DNA of 34,706 nt from assembly GCA_015066955.1 (NCBI GenBank), contig SVNJ01000004.1, forward strand, positions 1 to 34,706. Reading direction: 5' to 3'. The notes under the pieces were generated by a model. That model ran no database searches and had not been told where the DNA came from. It saw only the letters and a program-made list of their open reading frames with translations. This document shows, piece after piece, positions 25,349 to 34,558 of this stretch. The stretch comes from Ruminococcus sp. Lineage in GTDB: Bacteria > Bacillota > Clostridia > Oscillospirales > Ruminococcaceae. The first letter of the stretch is position 1, and each line of letters opens with the position of its first letter. Position numbers and translations under genes: made by a program.

Positions 25349-25744
25349 ATGATAAATATTAAAAAGCTTATTGCTACAGGAGCTGCACTTGTATTTATGT
25401 GCTGTGCATTTACAGGCTGTGGTTCCGATAATAATTCCGGGTCAGGCTCGGAATCTGAATCCGCAACAGAAGTTGTTACAGAGAATGTAAATGATACAAC
25501 TGATGACATTGTTGATGATACTACTGTGGTAACTACTACAACTACTACTGCTCATGAGGACCGAATCGACGAAACAGGGAGTACTGATGCCGCTGATAAT
25601 TACGTAGGCGGTGTTATTGATGGTGTTGAAAATGCCGGAGAGGACATAGTGGACGGTGCAGGAGATGCTATTGGCGATGTTGCCGACGGCCTTATGGGAA
25701 ACAACGACAGTACAGAGGGTGAGACTACCTCCGAAAGCAGATAA
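25349..25744 (+). CDS. Putative lipoprotein, acidic Thr-rich, no recognised domain
   Basis: KKLIATGAALVFMCCAFTGCGSDNNSGS (lipobox FTGC), then low-complexity TTVVTTTTTTAHEDR and Gly/Asp-rich tail. Confidence 0.7.
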   Translation: MINIKKLIATGAALVFMCCAFTGCGSDNNSGSGSESESATEVVTENVNDTTDDIVDDTTVVTTTTTTAHEDRIDETGSTDAADNYVGGVIDGVENAGEDIVDGAGDAIGDVADGLMGNNDSTEGETTSESR

Positions 25745-25758
25745 GTGACTATATTCTC

Positions 25759-25785
25759 AGGGCGGACATTGTTCGCCCTTTTTCG
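25759..25785 (+). terminator. Rho-independent terminator after the lipoprotein gene
   Basis: AGGGCG gacattgtt CGCCCTTTTT. Confidence 0.75.
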
Positions 25786-25816: not shown

Positions 25817-25845
25817 TTGACATAGGGCGATTTTTGTAATATAAT
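25817..25845 (+). promoter_or_regulatory. Predicted promoter TTGACA-N17-TATAAT
   Basis: TTGACA tagggcgatttttgtaa TATAAT upstream of the zinc-ribbon membrane gene; matches the consensus hexamers. Confidence 0.75.
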
Positions 25846-25878: not shown

Positions 25879-27255
25879 ATGATTTGTAAAATCTGCGGTA
25901 ATAACATGGCTGACGACGCTAAATTCTGCACAGGCTGCGGTGCAAAAATAGAGGAGGAGCAGACAGCTCCCGTAATTGAGGAAAATGCGGCTTCGGACGA
26001 GGTTTCCGAGCCTGTTTCTGAGGAGTACACTGCCCCTTCGGAGGAAACAGTGACTTATGAGGAAACCCCCACTGAGGAATATTCTCCCGTGCAGGAAGAA
26101 TTTACACCTTATGAAGAAACGGAGCCTGAGGAAAGTGCTCCCGTAAGCCTTGAAAAAACTGTTTCAGAGGACGTATCAGCTTTGATTGAGGCTGAAAAGT
26201 CTGCCGTTTCAACGGCTGAGGAGGAAATTCCCGAACCCGAAAATATTACACCTGTAGTTGAAAATACAGCTACAGAGTCAGATAATCAGGCAGAGGAAAT
26301 GAAGGCTTCGGAGATATTTGCTCAGGAGGAGCGTATGTCTGTTGAAAGTACACCTAAAAAGCTTTCCGCAGGACGTGCAGCAGGTGCTTCTTTCGTTGCT
26401 TTGTTTGCGGTAATCTTCCTTATCGTTTTCAACCTTGTGTTTACTGCAAGAATAGGGCTGAGCGGTGATATTCTCGGCAAGTCGGCTTCATCTCTTAAGG
26501 CTGAGCAGATTCTTGACGGTGAACTCGATGGTGATGAAACTGTTGCTGAATACATATATGACAAGCTTGACGAAAAGCTTATTTCAAAGAGCGGTGCAGA
26601 GGTAAAGGACATGAGAAGCTTCCTTATTGAGGCTGATGTTGTCGGCTTCTTCTCCGAAACTCTTGAAGGCTACGCTTCCTACCTTATCAACGGCAAGGGC
26701 GATGACCCGTCAATCAGCTCTGAGGATATAGCTGAATTTATCGAGGATAACAATACCCTTTTCTATTATGAAATGGGCTGTGCTATGTCCGACAAGGACT
26801 ATGAAAAGCTTGAAAAATCTCTTGCTGACGAAGGTGTTGACGAGGCACTTTCTATAGATGAGTGGGGCAAGGAAATCGGTTTCAGCCTCAGCAATGCACA
26901 TTTTATCTTCTCCTTTATTACTATCGGAGTTTTATTTGCAATTGTTCTTGTGTTCTATATCTGGACTGCTATTATTCTTGACAGACACACAAAAAATATC
27001 ATGGGATTTTTCAGAACAATTACACTTATCGGCGGACTTGTACTGTTTATCCCGACTGTTTTATTCCTTGTTGCGGTACCGTTTGCGGCACTCAACAGCG
27101 GCAATGCAATTGTTTACATGGCATCAAAGCTTCTTCTTCCCTTTGCGGCTGTAGGTGCTTGTACAGGACTTTTTGAAATTATCGTTGCTGTAATTTTCGG
27201 AAAAATCAGAAAGCTCATTAAAAAGAGAGAGCGTAAAATGAACGGAGGCTGCTGA
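25879..27255 (+). CDS. Zinc-ribbon membrane protein with long acidic linker
   Basis: MICKICGNNMADDAKFCTGCGAKI; Glu/Pro/Thr-rich linker; TM SFVALFAVIFLIVFNLVF; extracytoplasmic region; three further TM segments. ATG 25879 preferred over 25864. Confidence 0.8.
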   Translation: MICKICGNNMADDAKFCTGCGAKIEEEQTAPVIEENAASDEVSEPVSEEYTAPSEETVTYEETPTEEYSPVQEEFTPYEETEPEESAPVSLEKTVSEDVSALIEAEKSAVSTAEEEIPEPENITPVVENTATESDNQAEEMKASEIFAQEERMSVESTPKKLSAGRAAGASFVALFAVIFLIVFNLVFTARIGLSGDILGKSASSLKAEQILDGELDGDETVAEYIYDKLDEKLISKSGAEVKDMRSFLIEADVVGFFSETLEGYASYLINGKGDDPSISSEDIAEFIEDNNTLFYYEMGCAMSDKDYEKLEKSLADEGVDEALSIDEWGKEIGFSLSNAHFIFSFITIGVLFAIVLVFYIWTAIILDRHTKNIMGFFRTITLIGGLVLFIPTVLFLVAVPFAALNSGNAIVYMASKLLLPFAAVGACTGLFEIIVAVIFGKIRKLIKKRERKMNGGC

Positions 27256-27256
27256 T

Positions 27257-29098
27257 TTGAAAAAATGTGTAAGCTGCGGCTGTGAAAATGAAGATTCAGC
27301 TGCATTCTGCAAGGAGTGCGGTGCGGAGAGCCCGAAAGAAAAGGTAAATGTCTTTCCGCAGGCAAAAGTAGTTGCAGAGGACGGCTCAATGGAGGTAGGC
27401 GGCTTCCGCTTCCGACCTGTCCCCGATGAAGAAATACGTGCTCTTGTAAATCAGAAAACACCGCTTTCGACAAAGATTATTGCAGGTGCGGTTACTGCGG
27501 CACTTGTGATAGGATTTACTGCAATGGCTGCAGCTGTAAGAGGCTCGCAGCGCCCGAATCAGCTGGACATGATTATCAGAGAGGACAAAACCGTATTCCT
27601 TTTTAACGGTGAGCGGGTGGACGGCTCTGTTGATACTGTAAGCGAATATGATTACTGCGAGGCACACGATGAAAGTGCGGCAATTTTCCATAACCTCAAA
27701 AGCGGAAAGCTTTATGCGGTAACAAAGGACGGCGTTGAGCGTATTGCAAAGGACGCCGAAGAAGCGTATATCTCCGTTTACGGCGACTATATCCTCTATA
27801 CCGACGAGGACGGCTACGGATATTCATACAACGTGAAAAAAGGCAAAAATGAGAAAATCAGCGGTGGTTTTCAGCTTGAATCAGCTGTTGTTTCTCCTGA
27901 CGGCGAAACGGTTGTTTTCAACAAATACGGTGGCGACAGTCTTTATATGTACGAGGGCGGCTACTGCGAAAAAATCGGAAGCGGTATGAAAGCTATTGCT
28001 GTTTCTGACAACGCAAAGCACCTTTATGCCGTAGAATATCTTGCTGAGCCTACCCTTCCCGAAGGCGTTGAAAAGCCCGATTCCTCTGATTATGATGAGT
28101 ATGATGACTACAAAAAGGCTTATGACGAGTACAAGGAGTATGCGGAAAAGCTTGAAGAGCAGATGGACGAGTACAGGGAGTTTGATTCTGAGGATGTCGC
28201 TCTTTACTATATCCCTGAGGCAAAAGAGGACAAGGCTGTAAAGCTTGAAAAGCACTTCAATACTATTTCAAGCGTATACCTTAACGGCGATTTCTCTGAG
28301 ATTCTGTACAGTAATACAGACGGTGAGACCTATTACAGCAAAAAGGGTAAAGACACTGAGCGTATCTCAAAAAATTCACTTACTCCTGCCTGCTGGTACA
28401 GCTCTGATATGATTGTACTGAGCAGCAAGGCGAATATGCTTGATGAAAATGGGTCGCTTCTCGGAAGGGCTTATATAGATGCCGGAGTTGAATTCGTTAT
28501 GTTTTCCTTTGGCGATGAAGAGGACAGAGAGACATACAATGAGGGCAGTGCAATATACTACGTGGACAAAAATGGTGATGTTGACAGCATTGATGATGAT
28601 ATAGACGTAACAAGCATTGAGCTTTCCGAAAACGGAAAGAAGATATACTATCTTGACAATGACAGCAAGCTTTATGTCTCCGATACCGAAACAGGCGACG
28701 ACAAAGAGCGTATAGGAAAGGATATTTTATCCTATGTTGTTGAGGACGATTTCAGCGGAGTCTATGCGGTTGACGTTGACGGAAATTTCTATTATATATC
28801 CGATGACGGCGAAAAGGAGCGTATTGACAAGCAAATAAAATATTGCTGCAATGCTCTGGGTGGAGGAGTATACTACATGGATAACGATAACAAGCTCTAT
28901 AAAGCCGAAAAAGGCGAAAAGGGTGACAGAATCGCAAAGGATGTTGAGTATATCAAAAGCGGAAATTGCTGTACGTACTATCTGAAATATGAGGACGAGG
29001 ATTCCGAATTGTTTGAGGTATATGTCTCTTATGACGGCAAGGAATTTGAGAAAGTATGCAGTGACTGTACCAAAGACGGATATATAGAGCTTTTTTAA
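27257..29098 (+). CDS. Zinc-ribbon, single-TM protein with large propeller-like extracytoplasmic domain
   Basis: KKCVSCGCENEDSAAFCKECGAES; TM IIAGAVTAALVIGFTAMAAAV; repeated blade-like segments (YGDYILYTDEDGYGYSYNVKKG, SENGKKIYYLDNDSKLYVSDTETGDDKERIGKD, GGVYYMDNDNKLYKAEKGEKGDRIAKD). TTG start. Confidence 0.75.
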   Translation: MKKCVSCGCENEDSAAFCKECGAESPKEKVNVFPQAKVVAEDGSMEVGGFRFRPVPDEEIRALVNQKTPLSTKIIAGAVTAALVIGFTAMAAAVRGSQRPNQLDMIIREDKTVFLFNGERVDGSVDTVSEYDYCEAHDESAAIFHNLKSGKLYAVTKDGVERIAKDAEEAYISVYGDYILYTDEDGYGYSYNVKKGKNEKISGGFQLESAVVSPDGETVVFNKYGGDSLYMYEGGYCEKIGSGMKAIAVSDNAKHLYAVEYLAEPTLPEGVEKPDSSDYDEYDDYKKAYDEYKEYAEKLEEQMDEYREFDSEDVALYYIPEAKEDKAVKLEKHFNTISSVYLNGDFSEILYSNTDGETYYSKKGKDTERISKNSLTPACWYSSDMIVLSSKANMLDENGSLLGRAYIDAGVEFVMFSFGDEEDRETYNEGSAIYYVDKNGDVDSIDDDIDVTSIELSENGKKIYYLDNDSKLYVSDTETGDDKERIGKDILSYVVEDDFSGVYAVDVDGNFYYISDDGEKERIDKQIKYCCNALGGGVYYMDNDNKLYKAEKGEKGDRIAKDVEYIKSGNCCTYYLKYEDEDSELFEVYVSYDGKEFEKVCSDCTKDGYIELF

Positions 29099-29116
29099 TG
29101 AAACGGGAGGTAGTGT

Positions 29117-30418
29117 ATGAGTAATGATACAAGGTATAACCGTCCCCTTAATGCCGAGCAGAAGCACCTTATGAAGAATATGACGGCTTCCGTAAAGGCA
29201 GAGGAAATCGGTGCGGTAAGCTTTGAAATGACCGATATGCTTGTGCTGACGCCGTTTTTCGACAGTCACGACATAGCCTTTTTCATGGAGGATATGTTTT
29301 CGGAACTTTATGTCGGAAGCAGCACCTTTTATGAACTGAGATGCAAGGCTGAGGACGAGGTATGTGAAAAGAAAAAGGGCAAGCCGTATACTCTTGATGA
29401 GATATACGACCGCCTTGTGAAAATCAGCAAAATAAGTCCGTCAAGCCGTGAGAAGCTGATAAAGCGTGAATGTGAGCTTTGGCAGTACTTCTGCTTTGCA
29501 AGAAAATGCGGAAGCGAGCTTTACAGTGAGGCAAGGGCGGCAGGAAAAAAGATTATTATTACAGCAGATACACCCCTTCCGAAAAATACTGTTGAAGGAA
29601 TTCTCAGAAACTGCGGCTTCGTGGGCTATGACAAGCTTTATATAACTTCAGAATGCGGACTCAGCAAAACAGGTGAGGGCAGTCTTTTTGAAAAAATTGT
29701 CAGCGAAACGGGAATACCCGCAGGAAAAATTCTTCATCTCGGCTGTTCCTTTGAATCGGACGCAGAGGCGGCTATAAACAAAGGCTTCAGGTCACTGTTT
29801 GTAACGTCATGCCGTGACAGGCTCATAAAATCGGGCAGGCTTTGCGGTTATATCCAGAAGCAGAGAATTTACGATTTCTGTACGATAAAATATCTCTCAC
29901 TGAGATGTGTTATAGGACTTTACGCTGCGTATGCCTTTGATTATCCTCACGGAAAGGTTCCCCACAGTGATTTCTGCAATGACGAATATATGCTCGGCTT
30001 TATAGCTCTCGGTCCGCTCAGTCTTTATAAGGACTATGCACCCGAAACAGGACTTAAAATGAAGCTTCTTGCCGCAATGAGCAAATCAGAAAAGCTTATG
30101 GACGGCGAAAAGGGCTTCATGATGATGCAAGACGAAATATTCGGCTCAAATCTTGAAAAATACGGCTTTGAGGGTTGTGAGCTGCCCTTTGATTATTACG
30201 CTGCACACGGTGCGGTAGGCGACAGAATGATGCTTCAGAAGCTTCTTTCTCCCGAAGATTCCGAAAAATGGTCAAATGACGTCACAGAGCCCGAAATTGC
30301 GCCCGTAGCAACAAAAGCCGTAAAAAAGGGCGGTCTTTCAAGGTTAGCCGACAGACTATTCCCTCCCGGCTCGCAGGTCAGGACAATGGTCGACGGAATC
30401 CTTCATAAATCACGATAG
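29117..30418 (+). CDS. HAD-superfamily-like protein with degenerate catalytic motifs
   Basis: VSFEMTDMLVLTPFFDSHDIAFFMEDMF, KKIIITADTPLPKNTVEGILRNCGF, GKILHLGCSFESDAEAAINKGFRSLFV follow the layout of HAD domains of the FDxFDTLLLRP / SDMYLP / HIGDN type. Confidence 0.65.
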   Translation: MSNDTRYNRPLNAEQKHLMKNMTASVKAEEIGAVSFEMTDMLVLTPFFDSHDIAFFMEDMFSELYVGSSTFYELRCKAEDEVCEKKKGKPYTLDEIYDRLVKISKISPSSREKLIKRECELWQYFCFARKCGSELYSEARAAGKKIIITADTPLPKNTVEGILRNCGFVGYDKLYITSECGLSKTGEGSLFEKIVSETGIPAGKILHLGCSFESDAEAAINKGFRSLFVTSCRDRLIKSGRLCGYIQKQRIYDFCTIKYLSLRCVIGLYAAYAFDYPHGKVPHSDFCNDEYMLGFIALGPLSLYKDYAPETGLKMKLLAAMSKSEKLMDGEKGFMMMQDEIFGSNLEKYGFEGCELPFDYYAAHGAVGDRMMLQKLLSPEDSEKWSNDVTEPEIAPVATKAVKKGGLSRLADRLFPPGSQVRTMVDGILHKSR

Positions 30419-30422
30419 ATAA

Positions 30423-30429
30423 TTCGACA
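30423..30429 (-). promoter_or_regulatory. Candidate 0A box (TGTCGAA) upstream of spo0A
   Basis: TTCGACA on + strand equals TGTCGAA on - strand, the 0A box core; about 130 nt upstream of the spo0A ATG. Confidence 0.4.
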
Positions 30430-30498: not shown

Positions 30499-30526
30499 TT
30501 GATAGCTGCCATTTATTTGTGATAAT
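30499..30526 (+). promoter_or_regulatory. Predicted promoter TTGATA-N16-GATAAT upstream of spo0A
   Basis: TTGATA gctgccatttatttgt GATAAT; overlaps the perfect inverted repeat CAGCTATtgATAGCTG. Confidence 0.5.
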
Positions 30527-30556: not shown

Positions 30557-31312
30557 ATGAACAACAAAGTAAAAGTACTTATCGGTGATGATTCTGCGGA
30601 AAACGGCGTAAGCATAGCAAACAAGCTTCGTGAAAGAGGAATGTATGCTTACACAAGAAGAAAGGACTGCAATGTTATTCTTGATTCAATCAGGAACGAT
30701 CCTCCGGACGTTGCGGTGCTTGACATTTCAGCTCAGAACGGCGATGTGGTTTCAATTATGAGACGTGTACGTGAGAGCAGTGTGAGATGTCCCGTGTTTA
30801 TCGTTACTTCAGCCTACGACAATGAGTTCATTGAGCGTCAGGTTATGGAAAACGGTGCTTCACGCTTCATGTTAAAGCCTTATGACGCAGATGACCTCTG
30901 CAGTGCCATTCAGGCAACGCTCGGAGGAAAAGCCGACAGCTGCAGCGATGATATGGAAATTGTCGTTACCGACATTATCCACCAGCTTGGAGTACCGGCT
31001 CATATCAAGGGATATTATTATCTTCGAACAGCAATTATGTACTCAATCGAGGACAAGAATCTTCTTGAAAGCGTTACAAAGCTGCTTTATCCCACCGTTG
31101 CGGGAATTTACGAGACAACCTCATCGAGGGTTGAAAGAGCAATCCGCCATGCTATTGAAATTGCATGGGACAGGGGCAACGTTGATACTCTCAACTCCTT
31201 TTTCGGCTACACCGTAGATACCGGAAAGGGCAAGCCTACAAATTCGGAATTTATCGCACTGATAACCGACAAGCTCCGTCTCCGCTACAAAACAGCACTG
31301 AGAAGGGCATAA
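30557..31312 (+). CDS. spo0A: Sporulation transcription factor Spo0A
   Basis: Receiver domain ([34 protein letters not shown]) and characteristic DNA-binding domain [90 protein letters not shown]. Confidence 0.95.
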
Positions 31313-31656: not shown

Positions 31657-32166
31657 ATGGGTTTCAAAAAGGTACAGCTTTCAGAGCTGAATTTCAATCC
31701 GTTCACGCTTATTGGTAAGCAGTGGATGCTTCTGACGGGAGGTAATAAGGAAAAGTTCAATACTATGACAGCATCGTGGGGACAGCTCGGAGTTCTCTGG
31801 AACAAGGACATTCTCACCTGCTACATCAGACCAAACAGGTACACATACGAATTCGTTGAAAACGGCGAGTACTTTACCGCATCGTTTCTCGGTGAGCAGT
31901 ACAGAGACGCACTTAAGCTTTGCGGTGCAAAGTCGGGAAGAGACTGCGACAAGGCTAAGGAAGCAGGCATTACACCTGTTGAGCTTGACGGCTGTGTCGG
32001 CTTTGATGAGGCTGATATGGTGTTTGTCTGCAGAAAGCTTTACGCAGGCGGAATCAAGGCTGATTCATTCCTTACGGATGAAGGTCTTGCAGAAAAATTC
32101 TATGGCTCAGACCCGCTTCACAAGGCTTATATTGCGGAAATTACCGCTGTTTATGTAAAGGAATAA
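31657..32166 (+). CDS. Flavin reductase family protein
   Basis: WMLLTGGNKEKFNTMTASWGQLGVLWNKDILTCYIRPNRYTYEFVENGEYFTASFL. Confidence 0.9.
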   Translation: MGFKKVQLSELNFNPFTLIGKQWMLLTGGNKEKFNTMTASWGQLGVLWNKDILTCYIRPNRYTYEFVENGEYFTASFLGEQYRDALKLCGAKSGRDCDKAKEAGITPVELDGCVGFDEADMVFVCRKLYAGGIKADSFLTDEGLAEKFYGSDPLHKAYIAEITAVYVKE

Positions 32167-33170: not shown

Positions 33171-33328
33171 ATTCTGACTCCTGAAAAATTAATGGTATGA
33201 AATAAGCCAGAGACTATAAAAAATTCTGTGACTTATTCTCTTTTATAAAAAACATCTTTCCGATAATACTATTGATGTGTCATTCATCAAACAAAATGCA
33301 GAAAACTCTTATCGAAAGGAAGGATAAA

Positions 33329-34558
33329 ATGCAAATTAAAAGAAAAATTTTAAAATCGACCGCAATGCTATTATCTGCGTCGCTCATTGGTTTATTCGCA
33401 GCAGCGGAGTATTATTCCGCAAAGCTTCCCGACACAATCACAACCGATACAGGTACAGCGGTGCATATTGCCGAATTCCCTGAAATAACCTGTGGAAGTC
33501 TTTCGGACGGTGCAGTTGCCGTTTCCGATACATTCCCTGCTTCTTCAAGGGTTACGCTCAGCCTTTTCGGTGCAATTCCCGTAAAAAATGTTGAGGTGCG
33601 TGAGGAAGAAGCCCCGACGCTTATTGCAGGCGGCACACCCTTTGGCATAAAGCTTCTTATGGAAGGCGTTATGGTGACAAAGCTTGGAGATATTGAGGAT
33701 GTAAGCGGTGATATGCGATGTCCTGCGGAAGAGGCAGGTATTGAAGTAGGCGATGTGATTCGCTTTATAGATAATGTGCCCGTTACATCAAACAGTCAGA
33801 TTCAGGAAATAATCAGCGGAAGCAGCGGACGCACTCTTAAGGTCACGATAAACCGCAGCGGAAAAGAATTCACCGCACTTCTTGACCCTGTTTTCACTAA
33901 AAGCGAGCGTTGCTGGCGAGGGGGAATGTGGGTGCGAGACAGCATTGCAGGCATCGGCACTATGACCTTTGTAAACAAGGAAACGGGTGAATTTGCGGGT
34001 CTCGGTCACCCTATATGCGATTCCGATACAGGCGAAACCGTAACCATATCAAGCGGCGAGGCTGTACCTGTTGAAATAACGGAAGCGGTAAAGGGCGAGA
34101 CTGGTATTCCCGGCGAGCTTAAAGGCAGGTTCACCTCGTCTGATACGCTCGGTATACTTGAACGCAACAACGACTGCGGAATATTCGGTACGCTTACCGA
34201 AGACGTTTACAGCAGCTGCTGTACAGACGGCGAGGAATACAAAATGGGATACTGTCAGGAAATTGAAACGGGCGAGGCATATATTCTTACAACTGTTTCG
34301 GGCAGTGTTCCCGAAAGGTATACCATAGAAATTGAAAGCATTGACTATACGGGCAAGGACTCCACGAAAAATATGATAATCCGCATAACCGACCCTGAGC
34401 TTCTTGAAAAGACAGGCGGTATAGTGCAGGGCATGAGCGGAAGCCCTATAATACAGAACAACAAGCTTATAGGTGCGGTGACACACGTATTTATAGCCGA
34501 CCCCACAAAGGGTTACGGAATATTTGCGGAGAACATGGCAGACTATCTCTGCGGATAA
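33329..34558 (+). CDS. spoIVB: SpoIVB peptidase (S55 family, PDZ domain)
   Basis: PDZ segment SPAEEAGIEVGDVIRFIDNVPVTSN-like (CPAEEAGIEVGDVIRFIDNVPVTSNSQI), GTMTFVNKETGEFAGLGHPICDSDTG (His motif), GIVQGMSGSPIIQNNKLIGAVTHVFIADPTKGYGIF (Ser motif). ATG 33329 with aaaggaagg RBS preferred over 33272. Confidence 0.94.
   Translation: MQIKRKILKSTAMLLSASLIGLFAAAEYYSAKLPDTITTDTGTAVHIAEFPEITCGSLSDGAVAVSDTFPASSRVTLSLFGAIPVKNVEVREEEAPTLIAGGTPFGIKLLMEGVMVTKLGDIEDVSGDMRCPAEEAGIEVGDVIRFIDNVPVTSNSQIQEIISGSSGRTLKVTINRSGKEFTALLDPVFTKSERCWRGGMWVRDSIAGIGTMTFVNKETGEFAGLGHPICDSDTGETVTISSGEAVPVEITEAVKGETGIPGELKGRFTSSDTLGILERNNDCGIFGTLTEDVYSSCCTDGEEYKMGYCQEIETGEAYILTTVSGSVPERYTIEIESIDYTGKDSTKNMIIRITDPELLEKTGGIVQGMSGSPIIQNNKLIGAVTHVFIADPTKGYGIFAENMADYLCG

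Follow-up and report, generated by a model that had tools for sequence, protein, structure and literature searches.

Organization of the locus

The window, a stretch of 34,706 nucleotides from Ruminococcus sp. (contig SVNJ01000004.1 of assembly GCA_015066955.1), contained three genes, named here A, B and C, which were located 5' of a spo0A gene. The features were as follows:

25349..25744, + strand: gene of a small Ser/Thr/acid-rich lipoprotein, 5' of A and outside the A-B unit
25817..25845, + strand: sigma-A-type promoter TTGACA-N17-TATAAT, 5' of A (12/12 match)
25879..27255, + strand: A, zinc ribbon, acidic linker and four transmembrane (TM) segments, with an extracytoplasmic loop of ~150 aa
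27257..29098, + strand: B, zinc ribbon, one TM segment and a beta-blade (propeller-like) ectodomain with a helical insert
29117..30418, + strand: C, pseudo-HAD protein (CrpP-type core and cap, nucleophile lost) with a helical C-terminal domain and a 'LADKLFPPGTKVR' tail
30499..30526, + strand: own promoter of spo0A, TTGATA-N16-GATAAT with TG element
30557..31312, + strand: spo0A-1, the C-linked Spo0A paralogue (Spo0A equivalog cut-off passed)
31657..32166, + strand: flavin reductase-like gene (flavR), end member of a conserved block

The start codons were ATG with GGAGG for A, TTG with GGAGG for B and ATG with GGGAGG for C, and the intergenic gaps were 1 nt (A-B), 18 nt (B-C) and 138 nt (C-spo0A), so the promoter in the original prediction, and its coordinates and gaps for the three genes, were confirmed. 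In a scan of 6.7 kb, the promoter 5' of A was the sole 12/12 match, and a terminator-like hairpin (25759-25779) followed the small lipoprotein gene. A 12/12 promoter with N17 was also found 5' of A in the sister genome (G034), and identical hexamers and spacing were seen by inspection 5' of A in a third genome (G030, at L033 7334-7362). The DNA around the A promoter had diverged between the genomes while the hexamers and their spacing were kept, and such conservation of a putative promoter across diverged flanks is stronger evidence than the consensus match alone.

In protein A, the zinc ribbon CxxC...CxxC was invariant in 29/29 family members, residues 31-170 formed an acidic linker with 39 acidic and 7 basic residues, and four hydrophobic segments were revealed by hydropathy, with the membrane segments conserved in the family, in agreement with the layout that had been predicted for A. 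Zn_Ribbon_1 matched both A and B under the Pfam cut-off (E 1e-4 and 7e-5), and all zinc-ribbon Cys were conserved in the A family and in three B sequences.

Protein B had one TM segment at about residues 70-88 (hydropathy), followed by an ectodomain which was predicted to be all-beta, with repeated blades and a helical insert at residues 282-311. The predicted model, built on three sequences, was weak (pLDDT 65, pTM 0.56), and its Foldseek matches were beta-propellers with E down to 3e-13 but TM scores of only about 0.25. Thus the zinc ribbon and single TM segment first described for B stood, while "propeller-like" could be retained at the level of the blades only. Pfam GFA and teneurin-NHL matches to C and B were weak, stayed under the cut-off and were discounted.

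Protein C and its conserved neighbours

Protein C was a free-standing protein of 433 aa, for which AlphaFold2 with 37 orthologues gave a confident model (pLDDT 89.6, pTM 0.86) with a Rossmann-like HAD core and a cap, matching HAD structures in Foldseek. The best PDB match was Bcs3 (8a0c, E 4e-9, TM-query 0.50 over 313 columns), and 7shg was matched both by structure (E 9e-9) and by sequence profile (6e-7); the Pfam matches were HAD only, plus one stray asparaginase match. The nucleophile position 37 was occupied in 98 non-redundant orthologues, and in none of them by Asp; Arg was found in 47, Lys in 45, Glu in three (the window included), and Gln, Asn and Ser in one each. The Lys of motif III was kept in few members, and in motif IV the first Asp was lost in all while the second, D215, was kept in 98/98. 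With the nucleophile Asp and the first motif IV Asp missing from a confident HAD fold, the proposal of a HAD-like protein without intact catalytic residues proved correct. C is specific to Ruminococcus and combines a HAD fold with the loss of the catalytic nucleophile. Purifying selection persists on C, as estimated from dN/dS values of about 0.03-0.22 in close pairs, and many near-invariant residues were located in the C-terminal domain and the tail. C as a whole had diverged to a mean identity of about 45%.

The nearest homologues outside the genus were HAD-containing glycosyltransferase-type proteins of 650-1050 aa from the same order, which aligned over C residues about 20-300 at best, and six relatives outside the genus kept the nucleophile Asp. 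Since the profile found, outside the genus, mainly the HAD part of these larger proteins, an origin of C in a polysaccharide-polymerase HAD is suggested. The CrpP module of Bcs3 removes the 5-phosphate from newly added ribofuranose (PMC10299916). C may derive from a CrpP-type module of this kind, which would have removed the 5-phosphate from growing surface polymers of the ribofuranose type, and would then have lost catalysis by the change of the nucleophile Asp to Arg/Lys. The Arg/Lys at the nucleophile site, near the retained D215 and E217, could seal or re-purpose the pocket, and C would become a non-catalytic cytoplasmic adaptor docking a partner through the remnant of the HAD pocket and the conserved C-terminal domain. 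The adaptor would be part of a surface-glycan or Spo0A-controlled programme, its target being Spo0A-1 or else the expression or substrates of glycan enzymes. As a whole this scheme is the preferred one for C, yet tentative; if true, C would illustrate clearly how a phosphatase of polysaccharide polymerases turned into a non-enzyme, with a near-fixed change of Asp to Arg/Lys.

The C gene was identified in 55/60 genus genomes, and 80 C loci were recovered from named genomes. Almost all of these carried the name Ruminococcus or R. flavefaciens, and strains FD-1, 007c, MC2020 and ATCC 19208 were among them. Most genomes were drafts or MAGs. Clustering of the neighbours of 78 C loci revealed a five-gene block in the order GH95, GH26/CBM35 lipoprotein, C, spo0A and flavin reductase, with GH95 at position -2 in 66/72 loci, GH26 at -1 in 71/76, spo0A at +1 in 74/78 and flavR at +2 in 68/76, while beyond the block the commonest family reached only 10/63 at -3 and 10/72 at +3. 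The Pfam matches of block representatives were GH95 (8e-149), GH26 (1.5e-39) and CBM35 (3.6e-5, under the cut-off).

In 79/80 named loci spo0A was located 3' of C on the same strand, usually 130-200 nt away, and same-strand adjacency was counted by eye from the search tables in 50 of the 55 C genomes. The link to spo0A, originally a speculation from proximity, proved to be a conserved positional property of C. The linkage was broken in five genomes, one of which (G018) kept GH95, GH26 and C together with spo0A-flavR elsewhere; in the window genome (G000) and in G034, C-spo0A-flavR was kept and the GH95-GH26 pair lay elsewhere without C (on another contig in the window genome), and in G032 the block members were dispersed over a region of about 55 kb. 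The site 5' of C that the two glycosidases usually fill is occupied by A-B in the window lineage. As side observations, C and spo0A were separated by an additional gene of about 270-370 codons in three species (L129, L190 and L197, gaps of 1.1-1.5 kb), and two C-spo0A loci (L147 and L156) occurred in one uncultured Ruminococcus bin.

C could also belong functionally with the GH26/GH95 glycan enzymes. It might, for instance, regulate or scaffold the turnover of surface or storage polysaccharides, and spo0A would then be a passive downstream neighbour using its own promoter. The gap between GH26 and C was about 15 nt in most species, against about 130-200 nt to spo0A, and the best distance correlation was that of C with GH26 (r=0.76); both the spacing and the correlation favour the glycan side, and the retention of C beside GH95-GH26 in G018 and the ancestry of C in polysaccharide polymerases point the same way. 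However, C travelled with spo0A in G000 and G034, leaving GH95-GH26 behind, and the linkage to spo0A was at least as constant as that to GH26 (74/78 vs 71/76), so linkage constancy and the history of these two genomes favour the spo0A side. A glycan-enzyme role of this kind is possible, with the odds against it.

The block might also be conserved synteny without functional meaning, kept by slow local rearrangement, since operon-like spacing of neighbours can persist passively and some lineages no longer have the block intact. Against this, the gene order fell to near background just beyond the block in the same 78 loci, and C, in spite of its low mean identity, was still in place and under purifying selection, so purely passive linkage is unlikely.

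Another role proposed for C is that of a dedicated Spo0A-1 regulator, a putative pseudophosphatase which would bind the receiver domain or the phosphodonor and tune the entry into sporulation. The window Spo0A (receiver and Spo0A_C) scored 226.6 bits with TIGR02875 against a cut-off of 200, and the phospho-acceptor Asp56 was invariant in the C-linked Spo0A (79/79). Two Spo0A paralogues, both passing the equivalog cut-off, were common in the genus; those of the window genome (window 30557-31312 and L244, G000:C55, 561-1328) were 61% identical by search, and the C-linked one had an unusual loop after the phospho-Asp (DISAQNGD in the window), the other a PELD-type loop. Between C and spo0A, most loci of the genus carried a promoter-like site for spo0A itself, and the linkage therefore does not imply that the two genes are co-transcribed. 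Autoregulation of this gap by Spo0A through 0A boxes was rejected, because exact TGTCGAA/TTCGACA occurred in 9/80 loci only; the window had one exact box, at 30423. The gene spoIVB (SpoIVB peptidase S55) was identified at 33272-34558, shortly 3' of spo0A, an arrangement reminiscent of the spoIVB-spo0A neighbourhood of Bacillus but with the order reversed.

In favour of such a regulator, besides the same-strand adjacency, every C genome had Spo0A-1, and three of the five genomes without C (G060, G080 and G023) were also without Spo0A-1. However, the genomes lacking both genes are incomplete drafts (66-88%), so the co-absence may reflect missing contigs, and the other two (G030 and G016) kept Spo0A-1 without C. 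In addition, no Spo0E or TPR/Rap domain was detected in C (Pfam and NCBIfam, E<=1). Although R. albus 7 has been listed as asporogenous (PMC3533761), spoIIR was present in 53/60 and spoIVA in 58/60 genomes, which argues that the sporulation core is kept and against Spo0A-1 as a relic of an asporogenous genus. A dedicated Spo0A-1 regulator is nevertheless decidedly unlikely.

It is more doubtful, and quite improbable, that C couples the state of surface or substrate glycans, by way of GH95/GH26 or of A-B in the window lineage, to Spo0A. If true, a fibre-sensing Spo0A input would have been made from a dead polysaccharide-polymerase phosphatase. Ruminococcus flavefaciens and its relatives are among the principal rumen cellulose degraders. 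Their use of Spo0A, if any, was little described in the literature searched, and no published account of the C/spo0A/A-B neighbourhood was found in full-text literature searches. The pseudo-HAD gene, which is kept across the genus between the gene of a glycosidase lipoprotein and spo0A, offers a defined starting point for asking if plant-glycan status feeds into Spo0A.

The zinc-ribbon pair A-B

The A family was genus-wide, being present in most of the 35 other genus genomes searched, where A was mostly alone with neighbours that differed from genome to genome (20 kb loci); only in G000, G034 and G030 was it directly 5' of B-C or of spo0A. B was found in 3/125 genus genomes, and A was immediately 5' of B in all three; the A-B gaps of the window, G034 and G071 were 1, about 20 and 48 nt, respectively. 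The A of G071 was a full-length distant homologue (24% identity, E 6e-41), and its A-B locus was unrelated to spo0A, with a pspA gene coming next and no C nearby. A and B recur as a gene pair, in an arrangement suited to the transcription of both from a conserved promoter. The sample of 3/3 genomes is small, but it is consistent and includes one independent position.

The complete A-B-C trio occurred in only two of the 125 genus genomes, G000 and G034. No terminator was found between B and C in the window, and read-through from A-B into C may be possible there, yet it would be unconserved: in G034 a strong intrinsic terminator, made up of a hairpin (-29.7 kcal/mol, z -7.5) and a U-run behind it, was located in the B-C gap. 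Therefore, that A, B and C make up one three-component membrane signalling system, as the shared promoter, the gaps of 1 and 18 nt and the open B-C junction of the window would suggest, is very improbable, because the three genes were not conserved together in relatives (trio 2/125, B 3/125, C 55/60), C being abundant without B, A-B occurring without a nearby C in G071, and the B-C terminator standing between the genes in G034. The zinc-ribbon half of the proposed unit held (A before B in 3/3), and C was removed from it. The stretch is instead read, with a probability of roughly 60%, as a composite of two evolutionary units, A-B and C, with the roles that best explain each.

The genes of another contig in the G034 bin (L032, G034:C86, 5486 bases) were 99-100% identical to those of the window at protein level, while G034's own A, B and C were about 30-50% identical to them; hence a contig of a strain closely related to that of the window was probably binned with G034.

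For the A-B unit, the ectodomain of B would contact an envelope ligand, A would be the partner of B with four TM segments, and the cytoplasmic zinc ribbons of the two, as a pair, would relay or assemble. This scheme is modelled by analogy on the PspA-linked zinc-ribbon TM proteins of Firmicutes and can only be put forward with hesitation as a whole, while an envelope-surveillance pair is plausible. In L243 (6021-10591, G071:C1), a zinc-ribbon pair A'-B' was located directly before pspA, the sole pspA link seen. PspA as a general partner of A-B was not supported: pspA was present in 46/60 genomes, and among the 30 pspA loci inspected only that of G071 adjoined A-B; in the window genome pspA lay elsewhere, unlinked to A-B. 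No similarity was found between the ectodomain of B and the GH26/CBM35 lipoprotein that B replaces, and homology of the two was rejected.

Comparison with known systems

GH95 and GH26 (with CBM35) glycosidases are the usual upstream neighbours of C in the genus, and are absent beside C in the window. The matches of C to CrpP of the Hib capsule polymerase Bcs3 (PDB 8a0c/8a0m) and to the HAD of a Thermobacillus ribofuranosyl transferase (7shg) extended over the HAD core, the helical cap and some of the helices that follow. CrpP keeps only the first Asp of DxD, as nucleophile (PMC10299916), whereas C is without exactly this Asp. Unlike the CrpP/CriT-type transferases, C is neither fused to nor encoded with a PRPP-dependent transferase, no such (CriT) part being found in its Pfam matches or among the conserved block neighbours. 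The glycosyltransferase-type relatives differ from C in being larger, one of them fused to a GT2 domain, and in keeping DxDxT.

Proteins with a zinc ribbon, a TM segment and a beta-rich part were also observed in other families of the order, where four of six weak matches to the B ectodomain shared the N-terminal zinc ribbon and one TM segment. They differ from B in having ~30% identity over part of the ectodomain, and neither an A homologue nor C adjoined them in the short loci that were read.

B. subtilis YdjG, which is PspA-linked (PMC9239133, PMC11237479), and S. aureus TcaA (PMC10611510) have N-terminal zinc ribbon(s) and TM segments, like A and B. No NTF2/YpeB-like domain was detected in A or B by Pfam, and in contrast to YdjG and TcaA, A has four TM segments and B a beta-blade ectodomain. 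The Bacillus zinc-ribbon TM proteins around PspA are the nearest concept for A-B (PMC9239133, PMC11237479), itself an uncharacterised zinc-ribbon membrane pair.
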